Below are positions 2,095-32,198 of a stretch of DNA of 34,995 nt, in pieces. The stretch is from Bacteroidaceae bacterium (lineage in GTDB: Bacteria > Bacteroidota > Bacteroidia > Bacteroidales > Bacteroidaceae). Both the position numbers and the translations under genes were made by a program. The stretch covers positions 1 through 34,995 of the forward strand of contig JAFXGV010000058.1 in assembly GCA_017536765.1 (NCBI GenBank), written 5' to 3'. The notes below the pieces were generated by a model. That model saw only the letters and a list, made by a program, of their open reading frames with translations, did no database searches and had not been told where the DNA came from. Each line of letters begins with the position of its first letter. The stretch's first letter is position 1.

Positions 2095-4119
2095 TTACTG
2101 CAAGGGTACCTCTGCTGCAGGCTGTTGCGACGGCACAGCAGCCTCATCCACGACAGGTGGCACTTGCACTTGTTCTTGTGGCACAAACGACTGCGCTGCT
2201 ATAGACTGCTGCATCTGTGCGAGCAGTTCGGGTGGAATGCCGCCCATTGGTGCGCCCTCCTGCACCTGCTGCTCGTTGCGCTTTATGGCCTCCAATATTT
2301 TGGTAGCAAACGGGAAGGAACTGTTTTCGAGCATTGTTTTCACATCCACGGCATTGGCGCGGAAGAGTTCCATAAGAAAATCGTTAGCCAGCATTTGGTA
2401 GGCGGGTGTGTTATAGCCCTCGGCTATGGTGAGGTCTATTTCGGCACACTGCACCTTTTCGGGGTTGTACCACTTTGATTCGGCATCGTATTCGCTGCCG
2501 GCAAGGTCTATGTAACGCACATCGGTATAGAACTGCTGTATTGTTTTCATCAGTTTTATGTCGCGCCTGCGACGGAATGTGCGAAAGCTGTCGAACAACC
2601 CCTTGAGGTTAAGTGACGAATTGTGCGTTTGCTGCGCATAAAGGCTTGCGGGAGTACCTGCACGCGGTGCCTGCCCCTGCAATGCAGAGTTCACGCCAGA
2701 TATTTCATTTATGAGCCTCAGTTGCAGATTGAGCAGTTCAAAGTCGCCTGCAACGGCTGCACCGCTGTTGTATTGGCGCACCACCCCATCAATGCTTTGC
2801 CCGGGTTTCAGTTTCACAAAGAGCACTCCGTTGTAGCGTACATATTCATCTATGACCTCCTCGCGGCTCATACTCTCAAAGGCATCGTCATCTACCACAA
2901 GCACGCCTTTAGAGGATGTACCGCGTATGAAATCTATGAGTGTGGCAGTGCGGTTTATGGCTCTTTGCTGGTCAATGAACTGCTCCACGAAATTGCCTAA
3001 CTTGCCCTGCACAAGAGGATATAGGTGAAGCACATAGTTGTGCTCGCCGTGCCAATATGGGCTGCGCCCCTCTTGCAACACATCGCCATAGGGTGTCATA
3101 TAGCGGTAATACCAATAGCGCTCGGTGGCAAAGGTGTAGTCGATAAGCAGAATATCCTCTTGTGCAGTGCCCGCCGCTTCGCCTTCGGCTATGCGGCGCC
3201 TGTTTTCCTCCTCGAAGTATTGTTTCGAGGAGGATGTATATGGCATATATCCCCAGGTCCCTTTTGCGGTATCGTTCCATAGATAGGCATCGCGCGACTC
3301 CTGTTTCCACCCCAAAATAACGCGGCATAGGTCGCTGCGCGACGGGGTGTAGAAGGAGAGCGAAGCAACCTCGTCGCCCTGCATTGCACGGGCGATTTCC
3401 GGGCACAAGGAGGAAGCAGAGGCATACAGTTCCTTTATGCGTGCCTTTTCGTGCGGCGAACGCCCGAAGTGGGTGAGCACTTGCTCGAGCGGGAGGTCGA
3501 AGAGTTCACCAATGCAGGTGAGGTCCCACATACGCACATCCTCGAGGTGGGTGTTAAAGAAGAGGCGTGACGGGTTCACGCTATAAACCCACACATCCTT
3601 TTGCCCCTTGCAAGGGTTTATGCCATACTCAACACGTTGGGCTGCCATACCACCGTTGAGCAACAGGCGCATAGAGTCGGAATCTAACTCTTCCATCTCG
3701 TTTATGTCGTGCACATACTCTATTGCCACGGACATCATCTCGCCCACACGGCTCTCTTGGCTATCGCGGGCCACGCAGACGGGGCGCAGAAGATTCTGCC
3801 TCATCTGGCCATCTATGTTACTGAGTATGGGGGCTATCATATTGTTTTTCAAGGGAACCTTGCCATTCTTTTTAATGAGCGCTCCCTCGGTGATATATTG
3901 CCCTGTATCGGGATCGCGTACATAGTCGCCCCACTGGTCACCGTAGCTATACATAAGGCTTCGTCGCAGTTTGCGACGAGCCTCATCGAGTGCACTCCAG
4001 CAAGCGGCGCACTCGTTTAGGAATTCAATGGCGGTTGCAGGCTCCTTTACCTCCACTCCATCGTATGTGGGTGGCTGTGCCTTAACGCGCCTGTTGAGGA
4101 ATTTATTCATAACAGCCAT
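2095..4119 (-). CDS. Phage portal protein (P22/podovirus type)
   Basis: This 674-residue protein has the features of podovirus-type portals: an early SYGDQWGDYV segment, then IAPILSNIDGQMRQN, and a long alpha/beta body including VVDDDAFESMSREEV and a helical region around NLQLRLINEISGVNSALQGQ. The C-terminal 100 residues are Pro/Gln/Glu-rich, as in many such portals. The portal forms the dodecameric ring at one capsid vertex through which DNA is packaged by terminase and ejected. It is the last gene of the minus-strand unit that starts at 9890 and follows the giant protein after a 3-base gap. No frameshift or internal stop is seen. The terminase and capsid genes that should partner it lie more than 20 kb away, beyond the ATP synthase operon. 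Confidence 0.85.
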   Translation of the reverse strand: MAVMNKFLNRRVKAQPPTYDGVEVKEPATAIEFLNECAACWSALDEARRKLRRSLMYSYGDQWGDYVRDPDTGQYITEGALIKKNGKVPLKNNMIAPILSNIDGQMRQNLLRPVCVARDSQESRVGEMMSVAIEYVHDINEMEELDSDSMRLLLNGGMAAQRVEYGINPCKGQKDVWVYSVNPSRLFFNTHLEDVRMWDLTCIGELFDLPLEQVLTHFGRSPHEKARIKELYASASSLCPEIARAMQGDEVASLSFYTPSRSDLCRVILGWKQESRDAYLWNDTAKGTWGYMPYTSSSKQYFEEENRRRIAEGEAAGTAQEDILLIDYTFATERYWYYRYMTPYGDVLQEGRSPYWHGEHNYVLHLYPLVQGKLGNFVEQFIDQQRAINRTATLIDFIRGTSSKGVLVVDDDAFESMSREEVIDEYVRYNGVLFVKLKPGQSIDGVVRQYNSGAAVAGDFELLNLQLRLINEISGVNSALQGQAPRAGTPASLYAQQTHNSSLNLKGLFDSFRTFRRRRDIKLMKTIQQFYTDVRYIDLAGSEYDAESKWYNPEKVQCAEIDLTIAEGYNTPAYQMLANDFLMELFRANAVDVKTMLENSSFPFATKILEAIKRNEQQVQEGAPMGGIPPELLAQMQQSIAAQSFVPQEQVQVPPVVDEAAVPSQQPAAEVPLQ

Positions 4120-4122
4120 AGT

Positions 4123-7100
4123 TTAGTGGTTATTATCATCGAGATAGCTGCTGCCGAAGATATCGAAATCATCGTTAAGGCCATACCTAACCTTTAACCT
4201 ATCCTCTAATTCGTTTATCACCTGGCCTCTTGGGACCATACCCTGCAATGCTTTGCTGCCAAAGTGCATTTTTGCCAATGGCATTGATGCAATCTCGCTA
4301 AATATCTCGGCCTCACGCAACTCAACATAACTATTCTTTTTGGGATCCTTGGCTGCATCGGGTGCTTCAACAGGATCTATAAGGAGCAGAGATGTATAGT
4401 CCTCCTTCGCGCGTTTACGGCGTATCACCTCCTCGTATTTAGCCAATGCCTTTTGGGCTGCCTCTTTTATATACCTATGCTTTATGTTATTAAAGTATTC
4501 ATACATCATAGGGTTTCGGCGTGCTTTCACAAGCAGTTCGTCTATGTTTATATCCTTTATCTCATAGTTGGGATTGGCCCACTCCCCGGGCAAGCCATAG
4601 GACTCGTATCTCTTGTATCGGTAGAGTTCGTCCAATGGGCCGCGCAAGAAGTTCATCGCTTCGGCAAGGTTGGCAAACGACTTTTGGTCGCTGCGGGGTG
4701 TCTCCTCGGTAAGGGAGGGAGCATTCCTATCACGCTCATAGGGTGTCATAAACTGGCGTTTGTATGCGTTGGCGGCCTCTACATCGCTGCTTTGGGCAAA
4801 AGGTTTGTTGAACAACTGCCCAAGGAGATAATCGCTACCGGTGGGATAGCGCTGCAAAAACTGCTCCGGGCCCATCTTATAATGATTTGTGAAAAGTATT
4901 GATGCCCTCACCGCGGTGTTGCTGAGCGCAGGATCTTCCTGTGCCTTTATTATCGTTTGAGCCATATTCACCGCTTCGTTATACTCGCGTTTTACCGTCC
5001 TCGACCTGTTGAGTTCCATAAAATCCAAACGGGGAGCAAACCCCTCCTCTATTTGAATCATATATTGCAGCTGGGGTACTATGTCGCGCTTCAGTTCGCT
5101 GTTCTTAAAAACTGCCTGTGGCGTTACATACATTACATTGCGCATCTGGTCATATTTGCAAGTGCCCTCTATCTTGTCGGTTACCTCCACCTTCACATCG
5201 GCCAATTTGGGATATGCCGTGTAGAAAAGAGGATCGTCCACCAGATGGCGCAGTTTTATTACGGTACCGGCAAATACCCGCTCATAGTTTCGGCAAAGGT
5301 TGTTCAAGAAATCTTCGTGCTTGGGACTTGGGTTGTCACCGGCTGCCCCTTTAATGGCATTGTAGATGTTGGCCACTCTTTGATCCTTTAGCTCCAGTAC
5401 CATACCTGCAAGGTCGCGCAACTCAAGTTGCTCCTCACCTATTTCGGTGCGCCATCGGCCATCGGCACCCTTTTCCCAGCCTGTTGATGCCCATTGTTCT
5501 TGCGTATTGCCCAAAGCCCCATCGGGAGCATTGTTTTTAAGGTAATCTTCGTACTGCTTACTTGCTGCCAAACGGTTTGCTCCACGCTTGCCAATCAAGC
5601 GATATAAAGGATAATCTTGTACATCGTCTATTCCATAGGAATCGGGTTGTTCAAGCATTTTCCTTTTTTGGTCAAACAAAAAGGAGGGTGTAGCGGCAAG
5701 AGCGCTCTTCTTATCGGGGTAACGCTCTTGCAAATATCTGTTGTGTGCCACGGCATCGTAAAAATCGGTCACTCCGGCAAGTGAGGAAAATTTCCCAAGC
5801 AACTGCGCACGGTAGTGGTCGGGGTGTTGTCTTCTAAGCATTGCCTTTTGGTGAGCATCCAAAAAGTCCTGCAAATCACTCTTTGTAATATTGTCATTAT
5901 CGGGCGAATAGAATTTTTTACCCACAAGCATCTTCTTGAAAATGTTCTTGACATCGTTCAGTAACATATTCTCTTTGCGAGTGAGCAAGTTACGCTCGAG
6001 CAAGGTGGCAAGATACTCCTCAATGGCAGCATAGCCATCGATACCATATTGCTGACCTATTTTATGAATTTCACGAATCACTGTAGGATCGGCACGATTG
6101 TAAATCTCATCGTAGAAATCATAAAGATATTTGCCCATAAGATTGGAGAGGCCGGCGTGCCCTATCGCTTCGTGAACAAGCGTTTTCTCCAGTTCGTGCA
6201 CATCCCTGACATTGGGCAAATTTATATAAATCTTGCCGCTTTGGTTATCGAACCAGCCAAATGCCGACACTTTTTCGTTATACCCATCCACATCCTTGCC
6301 ATCGAAAGGAATGGAGCGTTCGTCGTATATGAAATTGACGTCAAAGCCCAATTGTGTGGACAACTGTACGGCACGCGACTGAAATTTCATAAAATCTTTA
6401 GGGGTGTTCTTTATTCCATAAACGCTCCAAGCATAGGGCTCATTCCACCTCTTTGGCACCTCGATGGGGAATTTCAAACGACCGGTAAGAGCACGGGCCG
6501 GGACAGGCGCTGTTCCGTTATCCATATTGTATTCGGCATATCTTCGACGTTCCTCGTTCTTTGCATCGTAATTGGTATAACCGGGATAATCGGAAGCCTC
6601 CATTTCGCTATCTATGGCACGAAGGCGGGCCTGGTCCACCCCATCTTTGAGAGCATCCACCTCCTTTTCAATAACGGCAAGGTACTCATCGAGCGCCCTA
6701 TTGGCAGCCTCAGAGATATAATTTGTGCGCATATCAATGGCCTGCAGCAAGTATCCATCATCAAGGCCATACTTTTTTTCAAGATTGCGACGAGTTTTTT
6801 GCAACAGGTATCCCACTCTCTTATCGCTCAATCCTGCATGCTGAATAATCTCGTGGAGCAACGCGTTCTCTTCCGGGTTCGTAGATTGGTTGTTGACACT
6901 CTTATATATTGTATCTATTATCTTGTCAACATTCATCCCCTTATCACTTGCATACTTGCCTACCTGGCGAAAGAAATTATCGGAATAGTATTCGGCCAGG
7001 AGTTCCGACTCGCCGATGGAAATCCTATTCTTGCGCAAAGAACCTGAAACAATATTCAGGTTTTCTTTTATTTGTGCATCGGTAAGATTCTCGCGTGTAT

Positions 7101-8856
7101 CTATGCGCCTGCCATTTATATCATAGAGAGAGAAGTTGTAATTACCTTCAGGGGTTTTCTCCACTCTATAATCGACAGGCATAGGAGGAGTGGATGTTAT
7201 CTTGTTTTCCACAAGAAACATCAGTTTTGCACGGGTTGATGCCGAAAGCTCATTGCTCGACATCATTTGAAGATACTTGTTCTTCAAATCGCTTATATGA
7301 GCGGACGTCTCTTTTTGAGGCGTGCTCAAAGCAGATTCGAGTTGCGAAACAAAATGTTCCGGTTCCACACCGGTTCTCATCATCTCCTTCTGCTCGGCAG
7401 ATGTGAAACATAGCTCTTTTTTTAGTTTACCATCGGTATTGAGCTTGGCATAACCGCCACGAGGACGCCAATGGGCCAGGCGCATAGCACCAAGCGTAGC
7501 CATACTGTCACCGAAATCGGCCAGCAAATCTATGGGCTCCACATCAACACCCGACAACAACTTGTCAACGCCCGAAACAGCCGTAAAAACAGCCGATTCG
7601 GCACCAAGCACACCTGCTGCGGCAGCCATCTTCTTACCACCGGTGAGGCCATAGGACTTCATTCTGAGTGGCGTGCCAACCAGGCCCACCGCTGCACCGG
7701 TGGCCAAGCCCTTGCCATAAGCCTTTACAGCCTTGTCTATATCTATTCCATCGTTGGCAAGTAGGTCGTCGGCTATGCTGTTGCCCGCATCGTATGTACC
7801 AAGTGTGAGGCCTTGCGTGGCCGAACTTTCCGCTATTTTGGCAGCCATTCTGCTCTTGATTGCCTGCTCCACTATACGTTCGGCCACAGGAGCCTGCATT
7901 CCCTTAACGGCATATTTTTTGGCAAGCGACGATGAAAGGTTCTTTGCAATGCCGGCCACGCCCTTTACTGCGCTTGACGAAACACCTCCGATAGCGGAAA
8001 ACATAGGCATATCCACAAGCAGTGAGCCTACACCCGCTGCAAGATCTTCGAAATGGTTGGCATCGTACGAAGCAAGGCCTTCGCGGTCGATAAGGCTTTG
8101 AGAATTGTTCTGCGCAAGAGCATTGCGTTTCCAATCGATGAGCTTGCCTGTGAGCGAATTGTTGTACGAGCTGCGGGCAATGTATTCGGCACTGCTTTTA
8201 GGAGCAGCTTCATCTACATACTCCTCGTAAAGCCTTTGCTCCAAACGGGGTTCGAGTATATCGTCGCGGAATTCCTGTGGCGACATACGTGCATAGGATG
8301 CATATTGGCTTGCTATTCTGTTGAGCTCGGTATCATCGGCATTATGCATTGTTCGTGCAATCACCTTGTCGGGGGCCGATGCACTTTGCATTGCACCTAA
8401 CGCAGCATCGCTGTTAGCACCGGGTACCGATGCATAACGCAAATACTCGTTGCGGGCATTCTGCTCGGCTGCTGTGCGTTCTTTCTTGAATGTATCTTTA
8501 AGACCATTCTGATAAACCTCTTCTGCGGCATCGCGCATAGCCTTGTCCGATGTTGCAAACAGACGACGACGGCGCAGTTCGTCGTTGGGCGATGGAACGA
8601 GGAAACTGCGAGCCGAGTTATTGTACTGTTCTATCTTTTGCGCCTCGTTTATGGGAGCAGCCAATTCCTGCTGTTCGTTTTGCATCTGTGCGGAGACAAT
8701 TCGCGCATCGTCTATCATAGCCTGGCGCTGTTCATCGGAAAGCGGTAAACTTAATTTATCACCATAGTTATTATAACCGTAAATGTTTTCTTTCAGTTTT
8801 TTTTGCTTGGAATTCCCGTATTCAAGGATTCCGTTTTCATCTTTTCTTTTTGTCAT
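4123..8856 (-). CDS. Giant virion/ejection-type protein with a zincin (HEAIGH) motif
   Basis: The start at 8856 is chosen because its ATG overlaps the upstream stop as ATGA; the open frame extends 25 codons further but without support. The product is about 1577 residues. The N-terminal part is Gln/Ala/Glu-rich and helical. Residues about 280-480 have Gly/Ala-rich hydrophobic helices (for example VGSLLVDMPMFSAIGG and GLATGAAVGLVG) that could enter a membrane. Near residue 893 is VHEAIGHAGL, a HExxH zinc-metalloprotease signature, and AIEEYLATL about 45 residues later could give the third ligand. The size, position next to portal and two small proteins, and helical content resemble T7 gp16-type internal proteins and phage polyvalent proteins. 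A role in genome or protein delivery into the recipient cell is inferred; protease activity is unproven. Confidence 0.7.
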   Translation of the reverse strand: MTKRKDENGILEYGNSKQKKLKENIYGYNNYGDKLSLPLSDEQRQAMIDDARIVSAQMQNEQQELAAPINEAQKIEQYNNSARSFLVPSPNDELRRRRLFATSDKAMRDAAEEVYQNGLKDTFKKERTAAEQNARNEYLRYASVPGANSDAALGAMQSASAPDKVIARTMHNADDTELNRIASQYASYARMSPQEFRDDILEPRLEQRLYEEYVDEAAPKSSAEYIARSSYNNSLTGKLIDWKRNALAQNNSQSLIDREGLASYDANHFEDLAAGVGSLLVDMPMFSAIGGVSSSAVKGVAGIAKNLSSSLAKKYAVKGMQAPVAERIVEQAIKSRMAAKIAESSATQGLTLGTYDAGNSIADDLLANDGIDIDKAVKAYGKGLATGAAVGLVGTPLRMKSYGLTGGKKMAAAAGVLGAESAVFTAVSGVDKLLSGVDVEPIDLLADFGDSMATLGAMRLAHWRPRGGYAKLNTDGKLKKELCFTSAEQKEMMRTGVEPEHFVSQLESALSTPQKETSAHISDLKNKYLQMMSSNELSASTRAKLMFLVENKITSTPPMPVDYRVEKTPEGNYNFSLYDINGRRIDTRENLTDAQIKENLNIVSGSLRKNRISIGESELLAEYYSDNFFRQVGKYASDKGMNVDKIIDTIYKSVNNQSTNPEENALLHEIIQHAGLSDKRVGYLLQKTRRNLEKKYGLDDGYLLQAIDMRTNYISEAANRALDEYLAVIEKEVDALKDGVDQARLRAIDSEMEASDYPGYTNYDAKNEERRRYAEYNMDNGTAPVPARALTGRLKFPIEVPKRWNEPYAWSVYGIKNTPKDFMKFQSRAVQLSTQLGFDVNFIYDERSIPFDGKDVDGYNEKVSAFGWFDNQSGKIYINLPNVRDVHELEKTLVHEAIGHAGLSNLMGKYLYDFYDEIYNRADPTVIREIHKIGQQYGIDGYAAIEEYLATLLERNLLTRKENMLLNDVKNIFKKMLVGKKFYSPDNDNITKSDLQDFLDAHQKAMLRRQHPDHYRAQLLGKFSSLAGVTDFYDAVAHNRYLQERYPDKKSALAATPSFLFDQKRKMLEQPDSYGIDDVQDYPLYRLIGKRGANRLAASKQYEDYLKNNAPDGALGNTQEQWASTGWEKGADGRWRTEIGEEQLELRDLAGMVLELKDQRVANIYNAIKGAAGDNPSPKHEDFLNNLCRNYERVFAGTVIKLRHLVDDPLFYTAYPKLADVKVEVTDKIEGTCKYDQMRNVMYVTPQAVFKNSELKRDIVPQLQYMIQIEEGFAPRLDFMELNRSRTVKREYNEAVNMAQTIIKAQEDPALSNTAVRASILFTNHYKMGPEQFLQRYPTGSDYLLGQLFNKPFAQSSDVEAANAYKRQFMTPYERDRNAPSLTEETPRSDQKSFANLAEAMNFLRGPLDELYRYKRYESYGLPGEWANPNYEIKDINIDELLVKARRNPMMYEYFNNIKHRYIKEAAQKALAKYEEVIRRKRAKEDYTSLLLIDPVEAPDAAKDPKKNSYVELREAEIFSEIASMPLAKMHFGSKALQGMVPRGQVINELEDRLKVRYGLNDDFDIFGSSYLDDNNH

Positions 8857-9341
8857 AATGTATGTTTTTTGTTTGAATACCAATAAGGAGGTTTTGAGAT
8901 TGCATTTTGAGGTTTTACCCCGCTTGCCCATTGCGCAGGCGCAAAACCCGATGCCGGCAGGGTTGTAGCTGTTTTATTCGCAAACGGATTGGGCACCTGC
9001 TTTTTAGAGATATCGATAAGCGGGTTATAGGCTGTTTTTGCGGCAGGGGTATTCTGCTTCAATTGCAGGGCCGCCATTTTTCCTTCGTAATCGACAAGTG
9101 CTTTGCGATAGCGTTCTTGCGCCTCCTCATACTCTTTGTTGGCAACACCCGTACGCGGCTTGCCGGTAACATTGTAGCGTATGGTTCCGTTTTGTGCCAC
9201 AAGAGAGAGTAGGTTTTTTGTAAAATCGGCAAATGCAGCAACATTGCGCCTGCGGTTGGCACGGCGGTATTCGTTCTCATAATTATTCAGCTGTGAAAGC
9301 CAATGCTTCTTCAGCAGCTCGGTACTGTCATTGTTGCTCAT
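8853..9341 (-). CDS. Small probable internal virion protein, second gene of the portal unit
   Basis: This 162-residue protein is helical and basic in its first half (YRRANRRRNVAAFADF) and Pro/Lys-rich with low complexity in its last third. I do not recognise the family. Its place between a T7 gp14-like protein and the giant protein is the place of a second internal or core protein in podoviruses, so that is the best guess. It starts at the ATG at 9341, 21 bases after the previous gene, and its TGA overlaps the ATG of the giant gene, indicating translational coupling. Confidence 0.6.
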   Translation of the reverse strand: MSNNDSTELLKKHWLSQLNNYENEYRRANRRRNVAAFADFTKNLLSLVAQNGTIRYNVTGKPRTGVANKEYEEAQERYRKALVDYEGKMAALQLKQNTPAAKTAYNPLIDISKKQVPNPFANKTATTLPASGFAPAQWASGVKPQNAISKPPYWYSNKKHTL

Positions 9342-9362: not shown

Positions 9363-9890
9363 CTACTTGTCGTCTTCTCTGCCCCAGTTTATACCCATAA
9401 GCGCATCCTCGAGCAGATTAAAGACGTTAGAGGCGCTTTGCGCTGCCATACGCTCGTCCATCGACAGGTTGGAGAGTTCACTGTTCATCAATGCCTGCTT
9501 ATTGTTTCGATGGACAGCATCGATGTTTTGCTTGCGGGCATCGTCTTGCGCGGCAAGATTTGTCATAAGATTCTCCATCGTATGCAAACCCTGTTGGTTA
9601 CTTGCTATTGAATACTCGGGTGTTGCTCCGTTAATTGCGGCGTAGGCCCTGTTTTGTTTGTTTTGGCGACTCAATGTTTTTTCCACTCTTTTTATTGCCG
9701 CACGCGCCGATGAGTTGTTGAGGAAATCACCGAAATAGTTTCTCCTATACCAGCTATCCTCCACTGCCGCTGCACGTTTGAGCAGCGCCTTTTGTTTGTC
9801 GCGGGCATCGGCCGCCCCAAACAGGCCTTTGACACCCGAATAGAGGCCCAATGCCCCATTCAATCCTGATAAAATTGTAAATGCACTCAT
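9363..9890 (-). CDS. Probable internal virion protein (T7 gp14-like)
   Basis: The start at 9890 (MSAFTILSGLNGALG) is preferred over an upstream ATG at 9956 because the promoter at 9904-9938 lies between them. The 175-residue product has a short amphipathic Gly/Leu/Ala N-terminus (residues 1-22), then long polar helices rich in Asn, Gln and Ala, with the repeated kind of pattern seen in podovirus internal proteins of the T7 gp14 sort (QNKQNRAYAAI, MNSELSNLSMDERMAAQ). These proteins leave the capsid with the DNA and help form a channel across the envelope. The assignment rests on composition, size and order relative to the giant protein and portal. It is first in its operon. Confidence 0.6.
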   Translation of the reverse strand: MSAFTILSGLNGALGLYSGVKGLFGAADARDKQKALLKRAAAVEDSWYRRNYFGDFLNNSSARAAIKRVEKTLSRQNKQNRAYAAINGATPEYSIASNQQGLHTMENLMTNLAAQDDARKQNIDAVHRNNKQALMNSELSNLSMDERMAAQSASNVFNLLEDALMGINWGREDDK

Positions 9891-9938: not shown

Positions 9939-9981
9939 AATAATGCCAAAAACCACTGTTTATCAGCATTTTAGTATTATC

Positions 9982-11450: not shown

Positions 11451-11451
11451 T

Positions 11452-24069: not shown

Positions 24070-24511
24070 ATAGCTCTATATAATCTTTCAAACAGTCGCA
24101 GCGTTCCACCACCTTAAGGCTCAATATGTAGTACAAGAAATTGAGAACACTCAAGAGTGTGCTGTTCTCGCGGGTGAGCAAGCGGGCATTACGCACTATG
24201 TTGGTACCATAGAAATAGTATGCCACATACATCATAAACGACACACAATGCACGGCTGCACGCTCCTCGCCTTTAAGATGGCCCAACAGATATATGGCAG
24301 CAACCATTACAAAATATATGGCAGCATCACGAAAGAAGCAGAAAGCCTTCTTAAAACTCCAGTTGCGATGGTTGCCAAGGTCGGCAAGTATACCCACGAT
24401 AAAGTTGAGGGTGAAGAGCAGTACCAAACCATACATATCATCCTTTATGGGAAAAAGCAATCCCGCCACATTGGCAAAGAGCGATGCCACAATAAGTTTA
24501 AGACTATCCAT
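24038..24511 (-). CDS. Phage holin family protein
   Basis: The 157-residue protein has three to four hydrophobic helices (LKLIVASLFANVAGLLFP, DMYGLVLLFTLNFIVGIL, DAAIYFVMVAAIYLLGHL, SFMMYVAYYFYG) and a charged C-terminal tail, the usual layout of Bacteroidota phage holins. The motif LADLGNHRNWSFKKAFCFFRD between helices is typical. It should make the inner-membrane lesion that starts lysis. It is followed directly by the spanin, giving a lysis cassette inside the tail operon. Confidence 0.78.
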   Translation of the reverse strand: MDSLKLIVASLFANVAGLLFPIKDDMYGLVLLFTLNFIVGILADLGNHRNWSFKKAFCFFRDAAIYFVMVAAIYLLGHLKGEERAAVHCVSFMMYVAYYFYGTNIVRNARLLTRENSTLLSVLNFLYYILSLKVVERCDCLKDYIELYETGEKNNIV

Positions 24512-24518: not shown

Positions 24519-24797
24519 TTATTGCATATATTTCACCAGGGAGAGCTCGCTGCGCGAGGAAAATTTAACACATTGCCCCTCCATCACCCCTTCGAGCGTT
24601 ATCTCGCACTTGGGAATATCCAAGCCGAAGTCGTCATATTTTATATACTCCTCCACTCCATCGATGCTCACAAGAAGGTTCACAGGGAAAGGGCCTTTTT
24701 TGTGCACTCTCACCCTCACATCACCTGCAGAACAGCACAAAGGAGCCGTTTCCCAACAGGTGCCATTGAATGATATCTCCAAACATCTAACAGCCAT
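24519..24797 (-). CDS. Small unknown virion-operon protein
   Basis: This 92-residue protein is probably all-beta (LEISFNGTCWETAPL, VRVRVHKKGPFPVNLLVSID). It lies between the adaptor (3-base gap) and the holin (7-base gap), so it is translated from the virion transcript. I do not recognise the family; a small head- or tail-decoration protein would fit. Confidence 0.6.
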   Translation of the reverse strand: MAVRCLEISFNGTCWETAPLCCSAGDVRVRVHKKGPFPVNLLVSIDGVEEYIKYDDFGLDIPKCEITLEGVMEGQCVKFSSRSELSLVKYMQ

Positions 24798-24800: not shown

Positions 24801-25451
24801 TTATTGTTTTTTTTCTTTATTACACAGCGACAAGGCAAGTGACATAAAAGCATTTGCCGCATCGCGCCTTTCAAACATATTGTAAAGCAGAGCCACACAT
24901 TGGTACAGCACAGCCTGCACCAGAGGGTTAGACAATTCACTGTTCAGTCCTCTATTCTCGTCAAAAGCCGCCTCGTATGCAAAACTTTTCACAACAGGAA
25001 CCACCCCCTGTGGCAAGGAGTAGTAATAAAGCACAGGTTTTCCCAAGCTATTCACCCCTTCTACACATACAGGCCTGCAAGCACCCGCACGGGTATGCAT
25101 ATTGCTCTGTGCCCTCGCCTCTGCACTATCGGCTGCATACGGCCTGGTACAGGGGCGCTGCCACCCTTCCAGATGCAGTTGCAACAAGGTGACGTAATCA
25201 GTCGGCAACACTATTTCACCACTGCCATCGGCATTACTTTTAATTGCATCGGCAGCCGGTTCATATACGGCCGGGTTGAGCGAGCCATATGTTTTATGGT
25301 GCTGAACAAAGAGAACGGCATCGGGCATCAAGGCCTTTATGGTATCGGAAAGTTTGCGTGTATCCTCGCTCAAAGCGGTGAGTGCATTGTCCTCGTCGGG
25401 TTCGTTTATCAAAAGGCGCACCTTTTCGACGAGGATTGCGAAGGGTATCAT
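24801..25451 (-). CDS. Tail adaptor (T7 gp11 / tubular protein A-like)
   Basis: The ATG at 25451 forms an ATGA overlap with the preceding gene and is preferred over a TTG two codons upstream; the product is 216 residues. The start VEKVRLLINEPDED and the central LPTDYVTLLQLHLEGWQR, followed by a C-terminal helix rich in A and L (PLVQAVLYQCVALLYNMFERRDAANAF split as VQAVLYQCVALLYNMF), match the pattern of gp11-type adaptor/ring proteins of podoviruses. These bind below the portal and hold the nozzle. The position two genes before the holin and in the same operon as the nozzle agrees. Confidence 0.68.
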   Translation of the reverse strand: MIPFAILVEKVRLLINEPDEDNALTALSEDTRKLSDTIKALMPDAVLFVQHHKTYGSLNPAVYEPAADAIKSNADGSGEIVLPTDYVTLLQLHLEGWQRPCTRPYAADSAEARAQSNMHTRAGACRPVCVEGVNSLGKPVLYYYSLPQGVVPVVKSFAYEAAFDENRGLNSELSNPLVQAVLYQCVALLYNMFERRDAANAFMSLALSLCNKEKKQ

Positions 25452-25873
25452 AACCAATTGGGGAACGACACCCCCTTTTGTGCTGCCACAGCTTTAACGG
25501 CAGCCTTGTTCTGCAAGTCGGAGAGGCTGCAGCAATATGGCTCACCCATAAGCACCGTGCGCGCTTGTTGCAAATTAGAAACCTCGGTAAATACATCACC
25601 GGCTACTGTTTCGTCGGGCTCAGCCTCTTGTTCATTAGCAATAGTAGCTATATTATCGACCTTGCCGCGCCTTATTTCGCCACAGCGGAACGCCTGGCTG
25701 TTCTCTATTGCCTGCTGGTAGAGCGGATTATCGGTTGTGTATTGCGCAGGATATACTCCGGTGGAGTTTACCATTCCGCCTGTAAATTCTATTCGTATAA
25801 GCGCTTTACCCACGCGGAAGAAACTGTTTCGTTCCACCTGACCGTGTATCTCGTATGTAATTCTTTTTCCCAT
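25448..25873 (-). CDS. Small head-associated protein after the capsid gene
   Basis: The 141-residue protein starts with a beta-rich part (RITYEIHGQVERNSFFRVGK split as YEIHGQVERNSFFRVG) and ends with a short helical tail KAAVKAVAAQKGVSFPNW, a SAP/HeH-like ending that I have seen in head proteins of Bacteroidota phages. The first 70 residues describe a small domain with a Y-x-A-Q-Y segment. Its place right after the major capsid gene suggests a head or head-fibre protein, but the family is not certain. It overlaps the adaptor start by 4 bases. Confidence 0.6.
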   Translation of the reverse strand: MGKRITYEIHGQVERNSFFRVGKALIRIEFTGGMVNSTGVYPAQYTTDNPLYQQAIENSQAFRCGEIRRGKVDNIATIANEQEAEPDETVAGDVFTEVSNLQQARTVLMGEPYCCSLSDLQNKAAVKAVAAQKGVSFPNWL

Positions 25874-25928: not shown

Positions 25929-27551
25929 TTATGCCGCTATTATCTCACCGGTATATTCAACCCAGGTAGAACCATTGTAGGTTACTACCGAGCCTGCGCT
26001 GAACCACAGCTTATCCTCACCGTTTACACTATGCTTAACATCGGCTGTAAGCACCACCACATCGTTTGTCTTGGGCGATTCGGGGAGTGTTGCCGAGCTT
26101 GTCACGCGCGATGTACCGGGAATATCGCTCTCGGAAGCGGAGCCGTTTACCCAAATGTGGCTGTAGCCTTTGAGGCAGAGGCAGTCGATGGTCATAACCA
26201 CCTGGCGCTGTGCCTCTTCGCCGTCAACGTTCTCGGTTTTCGAGTCTTCATTTTTCATATAGTAGCGCACAAGGCCGTTGGCATCGATGAGACCACCGCA
26301 ATTGGAATAGCCGAGCGCATCGAGCGTGGGATCGTGTATGAGGTCGATGTCGCCAAACACGGTGTGTATGCGTGTGCACTCTATGCCGAAGACGTTGCTG
26401 TTGGTTACATTGATATTCTTGTGCAGTGTGAGATCTATCTTCTGAATATCATTGAGCAACTGCTTGCCCAGCAACCATATAGCCTTCTTGGTACAGTTGA
26501 AACCGGTGAATTTCACCATCGACAGGTTTATGAGGTCGGCAAAGGTTATCTTGGAAGCAAGGTCGTACTGGCGTTTGAACTGCCAACGGATACCTTTGCT
26601 GAAGTAATCCCACTGATAGCCCATAGCAGCATCCATAGCCTGCACTTTGAACTTTCCGGGCTGGCCCACCCACGCGGTGCGGCAACTCTCCAAGCGGAAC
26701 TGGCGCAGGATAGCCTCGGCAATCTGCGATTTGTTGAATTGTATGCGTTTCTTCTGCGCCGCAAAGTAGTCACTCACAATGCTGTTGCACAGCTGCTTCT
26801 GCAAGTACATACGCTCGGGCACGGGCACAATGGTGCTGGGTGCTATGAATTTTTGTGTTTCGTATGCAGCCGATGAGAGCAAAATAATCTCGGTGCCCGA
26901 GGGTATAGTGGGCACGGTGCAGTAGTCGTCGGTTGCATTAACCTTGGGGCCGTTCACAGCCATTGCTATAGGAGCCTCGGTTGTACTGTTCTTGCCCACG
27001 AAAAAGAGCATAAGGTCAACGCCGGGCATCTCTATCTGGCCGGTGGAATCGTAACCGTTCACACCCTTGCAGATGGCGGTGAAATACTCCTGAAAAATTT
27101 TCCTCTCACCGGTAGTGGAGAAGGGAATCTCGGCACGGGTGGCACCGATACCTGTGTAAGTTTCATTGGTATAGGCCTTGGAGCGCTTGTCGTCTATCAG
27201 GTAATGGTCAACCTCAAAGGAGGTGACACGCACCTGGCGGCGCACCTTACGTTTTATGGTGTCTATGACACTCTCGTCACTCGCCACCCCTATGATTCGG
27301 TCGTCTACCTCAGCCTCCATCAAATCGGGGCTCAGCTCCGATGCGTTTGAAACAGTAGTTGCATCGCCCAGGCCTTGTGTAGGCAAGCCGGCTATGCCTT
27401 TTGAGGGTTTTGTGGTTCCGGGGGCCACTACTGTTGCCATAGCAAGCGACAAACCGGCCTGTTCATCGGCAAAGAGTGCAAGCAGCACGGCCACAGCCAT
27501 AAGGAGAAGAAACATTGGATTCTCCTTGAAGAAATTAAAAACTTTTTTCAT
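25929..27551 (-). CDS. Major capsid protein (HK97-type inferred) with a hydrophobic N-terminus
   Basis: The 540-residue protein is in the scaffold-capsid order, 36 bases after the scaffold gene, and its body (IDTIKRKVRRQVRVTSFEVD split as IKRKVRRQVRVTSFEVDHY; FVGKNSTTEAPIAMAVNGPK; AALDGY-type central region) reads like the major capsid proteins of podoviruses infecting Bacteroidota. The first 40 residues are unusual: MKKVFNFFKENP followed by FLLLMAVAVLLALFA, a typical membrane helix, then SLAMATVVAPGTTKPSKG. This may be a leader removed during maturation. The C-terminal 70 residues form an Ig-like or insertion-type module (TADVKHSVNGEDKLWFSAGS). The frame is intact. Confidence 0.75.
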   Translation of the reverse strand: MKKVFNFFKENPMFLLLMAVAVLLALFADEQAGLSLAMATVVAPGTTKPSKGIAGLPTQGLGDATTVSNASELSPDLMEAEVDDRIIGVASDESVIDTIKRKVRRQVRVTSFEVDHYLIDDKRSKAYTNETYTGIGATRAEIPFSTTGERKIFQEYFTAICKGVNGYDSTGQIEMPGVDLMLFFVGKNSTTEAPIAMAVNGPKVNATDDYCTVPTIPSGTEIILLSSAAYETQKFIAPSTIVPVPERMYLQKQLCNSIVSDYFAAQKKRIQFNKSQIAEAILRQFRLESCRTAWVGQPGKFKVQAMDAAMGYQWDYFSKGIRWQFKRQYDLASKITFADLINLSMVKFTGFNCTKKAIWLLGKQLLNDIQKIDLTLHKNINVTNSNVFGIECTRIHTVFGDIDLIHDPTLDALGYSNCGGLIDANGLVRYYMKNEDSKTENVDGEEAQRQVVMTIDCLCLKGYSHIWVNGSASESDIPGTSRVTSSATLPESPKTNDVVVLTADVKHSVNGEDKLWFSAGSVVTYNGSTWVEYTGEIIAA

Positions 27552-27587: not shown

Positions 27588-28361
27588 TTATGCATTAAGA
27601 GCATCTTCGATGAGCGAATTGTAACGACGTTTTTCGGGTTGTTGGGGAGCGGCGCTACTCAAGCCTTTTGGCATACCGTCGCCCATCTCCTCTCTCAAGC
27701 GTTGTATATTTGTATTGCGCCCCTTTATGTCACCGGCGGCAAAGGCATTTTCCACATCCTGCTCATAATTGAGGGCATTGTCGAGCGCTGTGCACACTTC
27801 ACGCGAATAGTTCCCCGAAAGGATGGGCATTGCTATATGTTCCCACACGCGGTTCATAAAATCGGCAGGCTCGTAACCACGCTCCTTGCAAAAAGCCTCT
27901 ATTACCGAACGACTTGCAGCAAGATTATCTTCGTAATTCTTTCGTTCCGTTGCCGCTCTCATTAACTCCTCTCTACGCTCCTCATCGGCTTGTAACATCT
28001 CCTCAAACTCGGGCGTACCTTCACTAAGGTTGCCCATTGAGCTGCCAAAGTAGCGTGCCAGAGCTGAGTGGGCGTTTCGCTTGCCGTCGATAATGTCAAT
28101 CATCATCTGCGCCAGGCGAGGATCGCGCTGCAACGCTTCGGCAAATTTATTGTTCTGCTCCTTGTTCTTGTACACATAGGCCAGCAGGGCCTCCTGGTAC
28201 ATCTCGTCGTTAATGTCGAAATTCTCGCCAAATATTCTTTTCAAACCTTCATCAAGGGTTGAAAACGGTGATGTTTCCACAGCATTCTCAATGGGTGCCG
28301 TTGCATCTGCCTGGAGCGTTTGCTCCACATTTTGTAATTCATTGTCTAAATTCTGTTTCAT
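27588..28361 (-). CDS. Scaffold-type protein
   Basis: The 257-residue protein is acidic and helical, with a Gln/Glu-rich N-terminus, a central helical region (ALARYFGSSMGNLSEGTPEF split as ARYFGSSMGNLSEG) and a basic end (PQQPEKRRYNSLIEDALNA). This composition and its place right before the major capsid gene fit a phage scaffolding protein that guides procapsid assembly and leaves before DNA entry. It is first in the minus-strand virion operon and starts 28 bases after the phage-set promoter at 28389-28423. Confidence 0.65.
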   Translation of the reverse strand: MKQNLDNELQNVEQTLQADATAPIENAVETSPFSTLDEGLKRIFGENFDINDEMYQEALLAYVYKNKEQNNKFAEALQRDPRLAQMMIDIIDGKRNAHSALARYFGSSMGNLSEGTPEFEEMLQADEERREELMRAATERKNYEDNLAASRSVIEAFCKERGYEPADFMNRVWEHIAMPILSGNYSREVCTALDNALNYEQDVENAFAAGDIKGRNTNIQRLREEMGDGMPKGLSSAAPQQPEKRRYNSLIEDALNA

Positions 28362-28388: not shown

Positions 28389-28423
28389 GCAAAGGAAATA
28401 TCAAAACCGTCCGATAAGGTTGC
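28389..28423 (-). promoter_or_regulatory. Shared phage-set promoter (copy 3, minus strand)
   Basis: On the minus strand it reads GCAACCTT, 18 bases, TTCCTTTGC, with the same 35-bp geometry as the other copies. It precedes the nine-gene virion operon from 28361 down to 20345. Confidence 0.7.
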
Positions 28424-28620
28424 TATAATACCAAATAGACTGTTGCAGAAATACCAAAAAGCACCTCTTTGCGCGCACATATATAAAGTATAGGTTTTTA
28501 GCAACAATTTTCTAAAACAGATATTCTCAAATAAGGTAACACTGCAAGCAGCTGCCTTTTAACCACCTTATATGTGTTAATGAGTGTAAACGCAGCGTTG
28601 ATAAATAAATTGGCAAAACA
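28424..28620. other. AT-rich divergent intergenic spacer
   Basis: This stretch separates the promoter of the minus-strand virion operon from that of the first plus-strand terminase-operon gene. Apart from AT-rich sequence I see no gene, palindrome or repeat in it; it may hold the site for an activator of the phage-set promoters. Confidence 0.4.
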
Positions 28621-28655
28621 ACAACCTTTTAGCCATATTCGGCTACTATATTTGC
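28621..28655 (+). promoter_or_regulatory. Shared phage-set promoter (copy 4, plus strand)
   Basis: It reads ACAACCTT, 18 bases, TATATTTGC; the downstream box is a full match to TAnnTTTG. It lies 20 bases upstream of the start at 28676. Confidence 0.75.
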
Positions 28656-28675: not shown

Positions 28676-29095
28676 ATGGAAAACAAATCGGAACAATCGG
28701 TACGCAAAATGCGTAAGAACGACGTTACAACAGCGTTCTTCGAGACACTTAAAAAGATTAGGAAAACAAATCCTCTTGCCACGCAAAGCGATGTAATAGA
28801 GGAAGCGGTAAAGAGTGAAGCACCGCGCTTCTATGTGACATTTGAAAACGCACGCCGCTACATATCGCTTATGGCACGCAAAAAGAAGATTCCAATAGTG
28901 AATAAAAATAAATTGGAGATGTACAAGGAGATATACCGCCGCTACATAAAACGCATAAAGGAGACAAGCGAGCACTATCGTTTTGTAATTCTTGAACGCA
29001 TAATTGAGGAGCCTGCCCCATCGTTCTATCTGGACGAAGAGACCTTCAAAGGTATAGTTTACAGAACCCTGCGCGAACGCAGAGCCATAGCATAA
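28676..29095 (+). CDS. Small basic protein with an internal duplication, first of the terminase region
   Basis: The start at 28676 (MENKSEQSVRK) fits the promoter at 28621-28655; the open frame extends upstream through it. The 139-residue product is basic and has two similar units: VIEEAVKSEAPRFYVTFENA at about 40-59 and ILERIIEEPAPSFYLDEETF at about 104-123, both with an E-x(3)-AP-x-FY core followed by a basic helix. I recognise this kind of unit in Bacteroidota phage-like genes but not its function; a DNA-binding role (small terminase or regulator) is possible. It has its own promoter, and the next gene has another. Confidence 0.65.
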   Translation: MENKSEQSVRKMRKNDVTTAFFETLKKIRKTNPLATQSDVIEEAVKSEAPRFYVTFENARRYISLMARKKKIPIVNKNKLEMYKEIYRRYIKRIKETSEHYRFVILERIIEEPAPSFYLDEETFKGIVYRTLRERRAIA

Positions 29096-29190: not shown

Positions 29191-29697
29191 ATGAAAGAGA
29201 TTAAACTTAAAGTACTGCACAAGAACATTGAACAGCGTATTCAAATCTACACCTATTACACCGGTGAAGCAAGAAAGGAGATTGGAATACCCGAACGCCT
29301 GGCAGCACAGATGCAGGTATCGAGCGACGACAGCACACAGTTGAGCGACCACATAGGCAATGCCATTGCCGAACTTGGCAACCTCATTTCACGCTATTTT
29401 GCCATTTGCAGCATCGAAGACATCTTTGACCAGGAGATAAACAGCAAATTATACATCTTCACGCTGCCAATGCCCGCCTTTTTCCCTGCAACAGCTCTCC
29501 CGCGCATTGAAAAAAGTATGGAAAGCTATGCCGTGAAACGCGTTCTTCAGCAGTGGTTGCTGCAACACCGCCCCGAGGAGGCGGCAATACCCGCAGCCGA
29601 AGCACAGACAATAGCATTGCAGCTGCGCGAGCTTTTTGCCCTGCGCCAAAAGCCGGTTATAGAGTTAAATGACCCCAACAGCATCATAGACCTATAA
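29191..29697 (+). CDS. Terminase-operon protein, paralogue A
   Basis: The 168-residue protein is helical. It has YTYYTGEARK near residue 20, SSDDSTQLSDHIGNAIAEL at about 44-62 (S-x-DD followed by a helix ending in AEL), and ESYAVKRVLQQWLLQ later. These elements recur in the next gene (29701) and in 20345-20764. The family is not known to me. As the first gene of the terL operon with a 3-base gap to the next, it may be a head-completion or connector component. Confidence 0.62.
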   Translation: MKEIKLKVLHKNIEQRIQIYTYYTGEARKEIGIPERLAAQMQVSSDDSTQLSDHIGNAIAELGNLISRYFAICSIEDIFDQEINSKLYIFTLPMPAFFPATALPRIEKSMESYAVKRVLQQWLLQHRPEEAAIPAAEAQTIALQLRELFALRQKPVIELNDPNSIIDL

Positions 29698-29700: not shown

Positions 29701-30177
29701 ATGACAAACTGCATACTTATAAAGAGAAACGAACTGCAACAGCAAGCCGACCTTAAGAACTTTTATATGGGAGAGGCGGCCAAGCGCAAAGATGCCGATG
29801 CCGACACCCTACAAAGCAGCACCGATGACAAAGAACTATTCGTTATGTTCCTCAAAAGAGCATTGAACGAGCTCACTATGGCGGTTGCTCTTCGTTTCTC
29901 TTCTATAAAATACAACATAAACAAAGAGTATGTGGAGATTACGTTCGACACTACCGACAACAGTCGCACCCACTTGCTCCCTATGCTTAAGCAAGCAATA
30001 ACAGACTATTTGGTAAACGAGATGCTGCTACAGTGGCTGCAATTGCGACAACCTTATATGGCACAGCCATATATCGCATTGCGAGCCAACCTTTTTCACA
30101 ACGTGCAACAGATGTTTGCAAAATTCTATAACGGCAACCGTGTGCGCCGCCGTTCAACCGACTTGGCAGGTATATGA
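29701..30177 (+). CDS. Terminase-operon protein, paralogue B
   Basis: This 158-residue protein matches paralogue A in order and spacing of motifs: FYMGEAAKRK, SSTDDKELFVMFLKRALNEL and ITDYLVNEMLLQWLQL. Tandem position and similarity suggest they arose by duplication and may form a mixed ring or complex. The C-terminus is basic (NRVRRRSTDL). Its TGA overlaps the terL start as ATGA, so production of the two is coupled. Confidence 0.62.
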   Translation: MTNCILIKRNELQQQADLKNFYMGEAAKRKDADADTLQSSTDDKELFVMFLKRALNELTMAVALRFSSIKYNINKEYVEITFDTTDNSRTHLLPMLKQAITDYLVNEMLLQWLQLRQPYMAQPYIALRANLFHNVQQMFAKFYNGNRVRRRSTDLAGI

Positions 30178-32198
30178 CAATGAACAAAGAAAAAACAATA
30201 GCAGAAAACATCAAACGGCTGGGAGCAATCTCAGCCGTTTACAATCCTATAACAGGAGAAGGCTCCACCTCACTGCCCCGCAAGCGGGTTGCGATAGAGG
30301 GATTCCCGTTGCAGGAGATATGCCTCCCTACCACAATGCTCGCAGATGAAAGCACTAACAGGCTGGTGGAGGTGGGAGCTATGCGTTATATCGAAGAACG
30401 TGATGGGCACAATGCAACCAACAAAAGCATAGTAGCCCTGTGGCTCGACTTCTGCCTCACACGCATAAAACACGACTTTGAATATTGGGCAAGGAGTATG
30501 ACAACCATCTCGGACAAAGGCAAGGGGCGCGACATTCCATTCACGCTCAACCGTGCACAAAGGCAATATCTTGCAGCAATGGAGAAACTGCGCCTGGCCG
30601 GAGAGCCCATAGACATCATACTGTGCAAGGCACGCCAATGGGGCGGCAGCACCCTCACACAGCTATATATGCTGTGGATACAACTTGTTCACAAACGTAA
30701 CTGGAACAGTGTAATATGTGGCGACATAGAGAAGCAATCCTCCATTGTGGCCGGTATGCTTGCCAAGGTGATAAACCGCTACCCGCGTTGGGCCACGGGT
30801 GGCAGGCAGATAACCACAGCCCCTTACCAAGGGGCGCAGAAGACAAGAGTGATAAGCTGGAGCAACAGCCGCTATTCATTGGGCTCGTCGCAAAAGCCCG
30901 ATTCGCTGCGCAGCGAGGACATAAGTATGGCACACCTCACCGAGGTGGGCTTATGGAAGGCCACACAGGGGCGCAAACCCGAGGACCTCGTGCAATCAAT
31001 CTTCGGCTCAATTGCATCGGGAGCATACACGATGAAGGTACTCGAATCTACCGCTAAGGGAGTGGGCAACTTTTTTCACCGCACCTGGATAGATGCCACC
31101 GAGGGGCGCAACAACTTCACTCCCGTGTTTATCCCGTGGTACAGCATAGACATATACAGCAAGCCGATGAAAGAGAGCGACTACCCCGCCTTCATTGACA
31201 GCCTTAACGAGTATGAGCAACAGTTGTTTGGGCTTGGGGCCACATTAGAGGCTATCGCCTGGTACCGCGACAAACGGCGCGAAATGCCCGACGAATGGCG
31301 CCTCTTCTCGGAATTTCCCTCAACCGCAGCCGAGGCTTTCCAAAGCACAGGACACCGCGTGTTCCGCATATCGTATGTAAACAATATACGCCGCACCTGC
31401 GTGCCGGCACCGTTCAAGGGCGATATAGTGAGCCGCGGCTACATCACAAACGAGCAAGGGAAGCAGGTAGAGCAGACAGAGTTCCTACCCGCTGCACCCG
31501 GCGAGGATACAAACGCAGACTCGCTGTGGGTGTGGCTGATGCCCGACAACGAACAACCTCTGCGCGACCGCTACATAGTGGCCGTGGATGTGGGCGGTGT
31601 GAGCGACAAGGCCGACTACTCCTGCATAGTGGTAGCCGACCGCCTTGCAATGCTCGACGGCGGTGTACCCGAGATAGCTGCCTGCTGGCATGGCCATATA
31701 GAGCACGACAAATTAGCATGGAAGGCAGTAGAGATAGCACGCGCATACGGCAATGCCCTGCTCATAATAGAATCGAACACATTGGAGACGGAGGGCACCG
31801 AAGGCGATAATTTCGAATACATACTAAACGAAATAGCCGGCAAATACAGTAACCTCTTCAGCCGCACATCGCAGCAGGAGATAAAACAGGGGCGCCCACG
31901 CCGTTGGGGCTTCCACACCAATAATGCCACCAAACCTATGGTAATAAATTTTCTGATAAAAGCTCTGCGCGACGAGCTCTACATAGAACGCTGCCTGCAA
32001 ACCACGTACGAACTCGACCTCTACGAACTCAAAGAGAACGGCAAGGAGATGGGTGCCGTCGAGGGCAATCACGACGACCGCGTGATGGCCACAGCCATAC
32101 TCATTTGGGCCTGCTACAACCATCCCCTGCCCCAACGCCCCACAAGCGGGCACAACAGCAAACGTCGCACCCGCATTGTGAGTGAGGCCAGCATATAG
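30174..32198 (+). CDS. terL: Phage terminase large subunit
   Basis: The 674-residue protein has an N-terminal ATPase with Walker A region KARQWGGSTLTQ at about 152-163 and a hydrophobic/acidic Walker B region with the catalytic Glu in SMAHLTEVGLWK. The C-terminal RNase H-like nuclease has its acidic residues: IVAVDVGGVSDKADY (first Asp), ALLIIESNTLETEG (Glu) and GNHDDRVMATA (last Asp). All appear intact. It cuts concatemeric or chromosomal DNA and pumps it into the capsid through the portal. Whether it is site-specific or packs randomly (headful, as in gene transfer agents) cannot be told here. It starts with an ATGA overlap. Confidence 0.92.
   Translation: MTMNKEKTIAENIKRLGAISAVYNPITGEGSTSLPRKRVAIEGFPLQEICLPTTMLADESTNRLVEVGAMRYIEERDGHNATNKSIVALWLDFCLTRIKHDFEYWARSMTTISDKGKGRDIPFTLNRAQRQYLAAMEKLRLAGEPIDIILCKARQWGGSTLTQLYMLWIQLVHKRNWNSVICGDIEKQSSIVAGMLAKVINRYPRWATGGRQITTAPYQGAQKTRVISWSNSRYSLGSSQKPDSLRSEDISMAHLTEVGLWKATQGRKPEDLVQSIFGSIASGAYTMKVLESTAKGVGNFFHRTWIDATEGRNNFTPVFIPWYSIDIYSKPMKESDYPAFIDSLNEYEQQLFGLGATLEAIAWYRDKRREMPDEWRLFSEFPSTAAEAFQSTGHRVFRISYVNNIRRTCVPAPFKGDIVSRGYITNEQGKQVEQTEFLPAAPGEDTNADSLWVWLMPDNEQPLRDRYIVAVDVGGVSDKADYSCIVVADRLAMLDGGVPEIAACWHGHIEHDKLAWKAVEIARAYGNALLIIESNTLETEGTEGDNFEYILNEIAGKYSNLFSRTSQQEIKQGRPRRWGFHTNNATKPMVINFLIKALRDELYIERCLQTTYELDLYELKENGKEMGAVEGNHDDRVMATAILIWACYNHPLPQRPTSGHNSKRRTRIVSEASI

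Follow-up and report, generated by a model that had tools for sequence, protein, structure and literature searches.

The window analysed here, 34,995 nucleotides long, is the entire contig JAFXGV010000058.1 (our C53) of genome G000, a Bacteroidaceae bacterium (assembly GCA_017536765.1; 2.36 Mb in 84 contigs). It carries two blocks of podovirus-type virion genes on either side of the ATP synthase genes of the host. Module A comprises the portal, an ejection-type protein and two smaller internal proteins, with orf82 divergent from them; module B comprises the nozzle, spanin and holin candidates, adaptor, capsid and scaffold, with orf173, two phrog_19255 proteins (copies b and c) and the large terminase (TerL) divergent. 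An earlier note, made from the DNA letters alone, had proposed that the two halves form one particle maintained by the host. We compared the window with a genus sample of 44 genomes of uncultured ruminant-hindgut Bacteroidaceae, and the comparison supports, at the level of sequence, a single inherited, selected and co-regulated virion set in which no replication or integration genes are recognised. The window probably holds most of a viriform resembling a gene transfer agent (GTA), domesticated by the ancestor of the genus from a podovirus-type phage and inherited vertically. Its features are:

2095..4119, minus strand: portal, module A (Pfam P22_portal, 1.8e-35; PHROG portal, 4.6e-56)
4123..8931, minus: internal or ejection-type protein of 1602 aa, module A (phrog_14770, 3.6e-13)
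8853..9341, minus: internal protein 2 (ej2), module A; patchily detected among relatives
9363..9890, minus: internal protein 3 (ej3), module A; open reading frame (ORF) call
9928..9951, plus (the strand opposite to its gene): promoter box of the ej3-ejection-portal operon (position weight matrix, PWM, score 24.2; class by position)
9969..9992, minus: promoter box of orf82 (PWM 20.4; class by position)
10034..10282, plus: orf82, small conserved protein (ratio of non-synonymous to synonymous divergence, dN/dS, 0-0.042 in pairs with finite dS)
10347..18520, minus: host block of a thioredoxin-like lipoprotein gene and the F-type ATP synthase genes; between the modules in eight genomes too
18796..19428, minus: S24-type repressor, the likely regulator (Pfam Peptidase_S24, 9.2e-10; N-terminus helix-turn-helix-like by eye)
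19693..20070, plus: orf125, divergent partner of the repressor; recurs beside it; no Pfam match
20060..20284, plus: orf74, small hydrophobic protein; recurs beside the repressor; no Pfam match
20345..20764, minus: phrog_19255 protein copy a, module B (3.4e-07); patchy among relatives
20767..23664, minus: tail nozzle, module B (phrog_32516, 5.1e-61; model matches phage nozzles)
23677..24069, minus: Rz-like spanin candidate, a lipoprotein (position; lipobox by eye)
24038..24511, minus: holin candidate (Pfam Phage_holin_4_1, 3.3e-4, below cut-off; phrog_15037, 6.6e-12)
24519..24797, minus: orf92, virion-operon ORF; absent or undetected in some relatives
24801..25457, minus: adaptor (head-tail connector) candidate (phrog_22135, 2.4e-13; same place in phage relatives)
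25448..25873, minus: orf141, conserved virion-operon ORF
25929..27551, minus: major capsid protein (phrog_26635, 9.7e-23; model matches the HK97 fold)
27588..28361, minus: scaffold candidate (phrog_22323, 5.2e-15; immediately before the capsid gene in relatives)
28413..28459, plus: two promoter boxes of the scaffold-capsid-tail operon (PWM 27.7 and 20.1; class by position)
28608..28631, minus: promoter box of the orf173/terminase operon (PWM 24.8)
28676..29095, plus: orf173, likely start 28676 (phrog_27246, 1.9e-12; beside TerL in phage relatives)
29126..29149, minus: promoter box serving 29191-32198 (PWM 22.3; p19255b class by position)
29191..29697 and 29701..30177, plus: phrog_19255 copies b and c (7.2e-08 and 4.6e-04)
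30174..32198, plus: large terminase, TerL (PHROG TerL, 1.1e-21)

The ORF list bears out the open virion frames that had been described, as well as the ATP synthase and lipoprotein genes between the halves. The virion identities of the earlier note stand for portal, TerL, capsid and nozzle, which have profile or fold matches; the holin has the Pfam match below cut-off, and the spanin and internal proteins were named from position and size. The capsid also matches Pfam below the cut-off only. Its AlphaFold model, of moderate confidence (mean predicted local distance difference test score, pLDDT, 65; predicted template modelling score, pTM, 0.63), retrieves HK97-fold capsids, with eight PDB matches at E<=1e-3 (seven phage or satellite capsids and one encapsulin). 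The nozzle model (pLDDT 84) retrieves the phicrAss001 muzzle and the SU10, P22 gp10 and T7 gp12 tail nozzles, and the ATPase and nuclease motif patterns of TerL are found in all 36 intact homologues. The 1602-aa protein contains an HExxH-like stretch, read by eye, and the position of its gene matches that of a giant gene upstream of the portal in the temperate phage BS-TP4 and its relatives. A short stretch of the spanin candidate is 53% identical in X116, a prophage of genome G116, and orf173 is by position a candidate small terminase. The start of ej3 is likely 9890 rather than 9956, from promoter spacing and aligned genomes; ej3 and orf82 adjoin in 37 of the 43 genomes with fetched stretches around the modules.

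Two points of the earlier description had to be amended. Each virion function was said to occur once, and phrog_19255 is present three times (20345-20764, 29191-29697, 29701-30177). To the listed gene content we add the S24-type repressor and two small ORFs (18796-20284), which recur with the set. The statement that integrase, replication, fibre and endolysin genes are missing holds in so far as none is recognised in the window, but another contig holds a fibre-like gene with the same promoter.

In 8 of the 43 genomes a single contig carries the full order of capsid module, repressor, ATP synthase and module A, and one-sided junctions are seen on the orf82/atpG side in 13 and on the S24/atpD side in 17. 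Because these junctions recur, the split is no accident of assembly. The draft state of the metagenome-assembled genomes (MAGs) and an rpoB contig in G211 that looks misbinned might speak for a chimera of assembly or binning, which had been one of the alternatives offered; the same junctions are present, however, in separate assemblies from at least two MAG series (SIG, RGIG), and we give this explanation next to no weight. Of the 33 genomes with 3 kb or more of sequence beyond the portal, 23 have ligA there, no further than 1.1 kb away in 21 and at 9 and 18.5 kb in the other two; the window contig ends too early to show this neighbour. F-type atpD, part of the operon at 11452-18520 of the window, was found in 31 of the 44 genomes, with weak matches or none in the other 13, which are drafts, and the operon may possibly have been lost repeatedly within the genus. 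In G206 and G207, where F-type atpD was not found, the repressor lies 985 and 27 bases from orf82, so that the halves adjoin where the operon is missing. Other clades have widely separated modules, either about 103 kb apart on one contig (G224) or on different contigs (G020). Tyrosine-recombinase-like ORFs lie beside the modules at G207:C16:3849-4721 and G214:C116:15709-16563, on G218:C99 and in G225 (L208); they could be either passengers or relics of rearrangement.

The set is conserved throughout the genus. Capsid and TerL each have a match in 43 of the 44 genomes and the portal in 41, and each is present in all 11 genomes of a high-quality subset (at least 90% complete and at most 5% contaminated). 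The capsid and TerL matches of G227 are a distant phage copy only, so that the domesticated genes each stand at 42/44. The other misses, G209 for capsid and terminase and G203, G208 and G210 for portal, are in genomes 63-82% complete that each retain the other module, and all 44 genomes have at least one module. About 15 genes recur in nearly all genomes in which this region is covered; the patchier ones are ej2, orf92, p19255a, the repressor, orf125 and orf74. Outside the genus, a capsid homologue was found in 10 of the 188 family genomes drawn. The named genomes with close capsid relatives are MAGs of uncultured Bacteroidaceae or Bacteroidales, with stated sampling sites in the cecum, colon or rectum of sheep, goat, dairy cattle, yak, water buffalo and deer.

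Selection on the set was estimated by the Nei and Gojobori method (NG86) in nine chosen pairs, in which a saturated dS gives no ratio. The dN/dS was 0.012-0.035 for capsid, 0.017-0.064 for portal and 0.023-0.088 for TerL, and far below 1 in all 12 genes compared, ten of them from the virion set. This check, suggested in the earlier note, thus reveals no neutral decay, and contradicts its alternative of a rearranged defective prophage. Such a remnant might explain why no replication or integration genes are recognised, why some genes evolve quickly or escape detection in one clade, and why isolated stops occur in four genomes; it is hard to reconcile with the dN/dS values, with a complement that is largely the same genus-wide and with the promoter element kept upstream of the operons, and we regard it as highly improbable.

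The virion genes follow the host phylogeny. In nucleotide trees of 21 taxa, restricted to genomes with rpoB and three unflagged virion genes, 15 (capsid), 14 (TerL) and 13 (portal) of 18 splits are common with rpoB, against a mean of 0.3-0.4 and a maximum of 3 with shuffled labels. All ten rpoB splits with support of at least 95 recur in the capsid and TerL trees and nine in the portal tree, and these trees contain no conflict with rpoB at that support. Earlier protein trees of 22 taxa, including G211, had two (capsid) or three (TerL, portal, concatenation) supported conflicts with rpoB; between the two analyses both the set of rows and the method, from protein to nucleotide, changed. The G211 row was dropped because the rpoB of this genome (contig L140) is at odds with its atpD and virion genes (dS 1.10 vs 0.52); this contig is likely misbinned. 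Capsid and atpD dS agree in four of six pairs (0.52/0.52, 1.50/1.54, 1.83/1.93 and 1.70/1.62). In trees with a chosen set of phage relatives, from which rows flagged as broken or short were left out, the genus copies form one clade for TerL (36 genus rows, 34 others), portal (39 and 24) and capsid (41 and 36).

Free relatives of the set exist. In BS-TP4 (temperate, 64 kb), X227, L301/L302 and L262, the portal, terminase, scaffold and capsid genes are contiguous, and the ejection gene precedes the portal where it was matched. The portals of BS-TP4, BF1-TP2 and BKO1-TP3 are homologous at about 34% identity and that of X116 at 56%. BS-TP4 and X116 also have homologous TerL and capsid and the divergent terminase/scaffold layout seen in the genus; they differ in forming one cluster, with integrase and replication-initiator genes. 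By TerL and portal, the closest free relatives are the IMG/VR loci L301/L302 and L262 of Bacteroides timonensis (61-62%); these fall outside the genus clade, and their portal directly adjoins the terminase. X116 has another gene order, in which portal and nozzle precede the terminase, and it appears complete because homologues of an integrase, a replication initiator and a PAPS reductase (25-34% identity) lie within about 50 kb around it. A complete phage with replication genes joining the two halves in relatives had been named as a finding that would refute the proposal; G116 carries X116 besides the split set, as a separate prophage and not as a joined version. The genome G130 contains, beyond its terminase (C56:1-4452, L097), a region similar to the 2645-aa gp14 of BS-TP4 (25% over 1153 aa).

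X116, the more distant prophage of G227 and further weak capsid matches in G227 and G231 might suggest repeated infection by related temperate phages, with the split sets being recent prophages or their fragments. Against this, the genus copies are one clade in three gene trees, follow the host tree and mostly occupy one host locus. By tblastn, the BS-TP4 integrase matched beside the modules in four genomes only, its replication initiator had no match in the fetched genus stretches, and the best virome match to the capsid among 55 loci is 63%. The window itself has no recognised integrase or replication gene beside its virion genes, such as a temperate phage would carry. We think repeated infection very unlikely.

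A promoter element is common to both halves. The divergent spacers of modules A and B carry a box that reads aAtTGtCAaTtCAGCAACCTTgt in the direction of the gene. Scanning 1.75 Mb of genus DNA gave 135 sites with a score of at least 18, of which 131 lie upstream of genes of the set (scaffold 40, ej3 31, orf82 30, p19255b 17, orf173 10, orf125 3) and four elsewhere. In 127 of the 135, the box is followed at an offset of 18-19 by TT[TC]G, the core motif of the -7 box of Bacteroidetes promoters. As the main matrix was built on the spacers of both modules, counts there are biased in its favour; checks beyond or across these training data come from the p19255b sites, cassettes in G000 described below and cross-trained matrices. 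When training used one module only, the matrix of module A recognised the module B spacer in 29 of 34 genomes (random genus stretches 10/680) and that of module B the module A spacer in 25 of 37 (random genus stretches 4/740). The strict pattern, counted over whole genomes, has 134 occurrences spread over 40 of the 44, compared with 9 for a reversed control; with at most one mismatch, G000 has 28 sites vs 9 for the control, six of them in the window. No box site scoring at least 16 was found in X116, BS-TP4, L262 or L132, and L301/L302 have one weak site, in the matching spacer. The common box supports regulatory unity of the halves at the sequence level.

The box also leads to genes away from the two modules. 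A third locus, locus C, holds a fibre-like protein behind a box with nagB-like genes nearby (names by eye except for Pfam hits), as well as a glycosyltransferase (G000, G101, G206) and a PI-PLC-like protein (G000). The glycosyltransferase was found in 12 of the 44 genomes (E<=1e-40), and 10 other genomes had no match to the PI-PLC-like gene. Of the 44 genomes, 24 have DUF6973 genes, with a box upstream in five (G000, G214 and G101, and by position G046 and G186). In G000 (C46; L438 201-1209 and 2862-3966), two tandem cassettes of DUF6973 plus lipoprotein have nearly identical promoters, in each of which box and -7 box immediately precede the start codon, and are like duplicated effector/immunity modules. 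A box also precedes a DUF5675 protein in G144, and other sites precede genes without a clear role. The DUF6973 cassettes and the DUF5675 protein may be either lysis enzymes or effectors.

These cassettes raise the possibility that the domesticated particle serves another use, for instance to carry toxic proteins to competitors or to kill when it is released, DNA packaging being of secondary importance. The DUF6973 and lipoprotein genes would then be effector and immunity genes loaded into the particle or released with it, as the tandem promoters of G000 and the boxes in five of the 24 DUF6973 genomes might suggest. Yet the other 19 have no site of the strict pattern nearby, and the toxin role is putative, the name DUF6973 being absent from the literature searched. 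Moreover, the terminase motifs and the portal are kept genus-wide, and a DNA-free particle would need neither. We therefore consider this use unlikely.

The S24-type repressor is a likely regulator and a possible link to a signal. Among its 25 intact copies, 25 fit the Ser pattern, 23 the Ala-Gly pattern and 21 the Lys pattern; in the misfits printed, the Ala-Gly and Lys are still there. We propose that the virion genes derive from a temperate podovirus-type phage of the BS-TP4, BF1-TP2 and BKO1-TP3 group, domesticated in the ancestor of the genus and passed on vertically since. The box promoters, activated through a regulator, would be turned on by a signal, which might be DNA damage that causes the repressor to be cleaved. 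Scaffold, capsid, adaptor and nozzle would assemble a short-tailed particle, and the terminase, its catalytic motifs kept, would load cellular DNA by a headful route. The holin and spanin, with a further lytic enzyme, may release the particle, and the fibre-like protein and internal ejection proteins could bring the DNA into related cells.

The proposal of one particle maintained by the host is supported by the presence of the set throughout the genus, by purifying selection, by trees that follow the host, by a locus that is mostly fixed and by one promoter class for both halves, and the two halves can thus be regarded as one co-regulated system. It is best read as an independently evolved GTA, possibly triggered through the S24 repressor, which would package random host DNA and deliver it. 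A broader version, which we put forward tentatively and hold to be less likely than not, sees an independent GTA of the Bacteroidota with at least three scattered loci in a box-promoter regulon, including strain-variable DUF6973 effector and lipoprotein immunity cassettes, that moves host DNA among kin and kills or excludes non-kin.

We know of no such GTA from the Bacteroidota, and a non-exhaustive search found no report of one in the titles and abstract openings of the literature covered. Among known systems, RcGTA has a siphovirus-like tail. As far as the published descriptions go, RcGTA and other Rhodogtaviriformidae share vertical inheritance, several loci, a caudoviricete origin and a proposed headful-type terminase ancestry with the genus set (PMC9662315, PMC7947584); they differ in being alphaproteobacterial and tied to cellular circuits such as quorum sensing, whereas the genus set has a box promoter and perhaps the S24 repressor. 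The closest precedent appears to be FpGTA of Faecalibacterium, whose podovirus-like virion genes are described in two operons about 125 kb apart in one strain, with operon I in all 12 Faecalibacterium genomes examined there, and whose named products include no replication gene (PMC12946183). This likeness is drawn from the published description; FpGTA belongs to another phylum, and its particles, 8.4-8.9 kb of packaged DNA and proteomics are reported in that account (PMC12946183), whereas the genus set is known from genes alone. GTAs are defined by six features: a caudoviricete-derived particle, mostly random host DNA, full endogenization, often at several loci, a genome that is not fully packageable, mostly vertical inheritance and DNA delivery to other cells (PMC9662315). 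Three of them are seen here and none is contradicted: caudoviricete-derived proteins, from the similarity of the portal, TerL, capsid and nozzle genes; endogenization at several loci, with two separated modules, locus C and no recognised integrase or replication gene in the window; and mostly vertical inheritance with host co-diversification, from the trees, the single clade, the locus and the dS agreement in four of six pairs. The kept TerL motifs bear on the packaging of host DNA, and the separation of portal and capsid (about 103 kb in G224, different contigs in G020) bears on whether the genome could be packaged in full.

Several observations weigh against a GTA-like viriform. The strict box pattern is absent from G020, G067, G085 and G224, three of which are in the high-quality subset; ligA was not seen beyond the portal in 10 of the 33 genomes with room for it; and tyrosine recombinases adjoin the modules in four genomes. 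Capsid and atpD dS disagree in G186-G229 (0.21/0.05) and G130-G216 (1.58/3.11), and of the six pairs five have an rpoB dS below that of the capsid and one, the G211 pair, an rpoB dS above it. According to Kogay et al., GTA genes reportedly carry a signature of cheaper amino acids than their viral homologues; with assumed cost constants, the outcome was mixed here, lower for portal, lower in carbon only for TerL and higher for capsid. Nozzle, spanin and holin are unrecognised in the clade G172/G201/G208/G217/G222/G224, the holin in G205 and G230 too, and no endolysin was identified. In-frame stops interrupt the portal of G158 and G201 and the TerL of G228 and G224; ejectL is flagged as broken in G067, G158, G207 and G211, by an unreliable flag that also falls on atpA in many genomes. 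Within the fetched stretches, just 26 of the 44 genomes yielded the repressor, and the named genus genomes are MAGs, so far with genes as the only record of the system.

If the GTA-like reading is true, one of the main gut phyla possesses a domesticated DNA-packaging particle of its own, which has persisted throughout a genus, and a readable promoter code points to the regulon of that particle. The birth of a GTA would also become testable, because G116 carries the domesticated set together with a free prophage cousin, and because the halves adjoin in the two species without the ATP synthase operon (G206, G207).

The window contains further genes outside the virion set. Beyond the portal, at 38-2057, lie a TPR protein and then a TIR-domain protein (Pfam TIR_2, 2.3e-10; PADLOC ThsB-like, 3.7e-08), a possible defence pair; within the fetched stretches, the TIR gene is found in G000 and its close relative G211 only. 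On the other side, orf276 (32680-33510) holds a RLTESDLHQIIKESV stretch, reminiscent of Bacteroides phage proteins, and a box-like site at 32892 lies inside this ORF, with no gene of the virion set downstream. Finally, an array at 34105-34987 resembling clustered regularly interspaced short palindromic repeats (CRISPR) contains 10 repeat copies, eight of them 89-100% alike and spaced 76-77 bases apart; we take these repeats to resemble those of type II-C Bacteroidetes systems.

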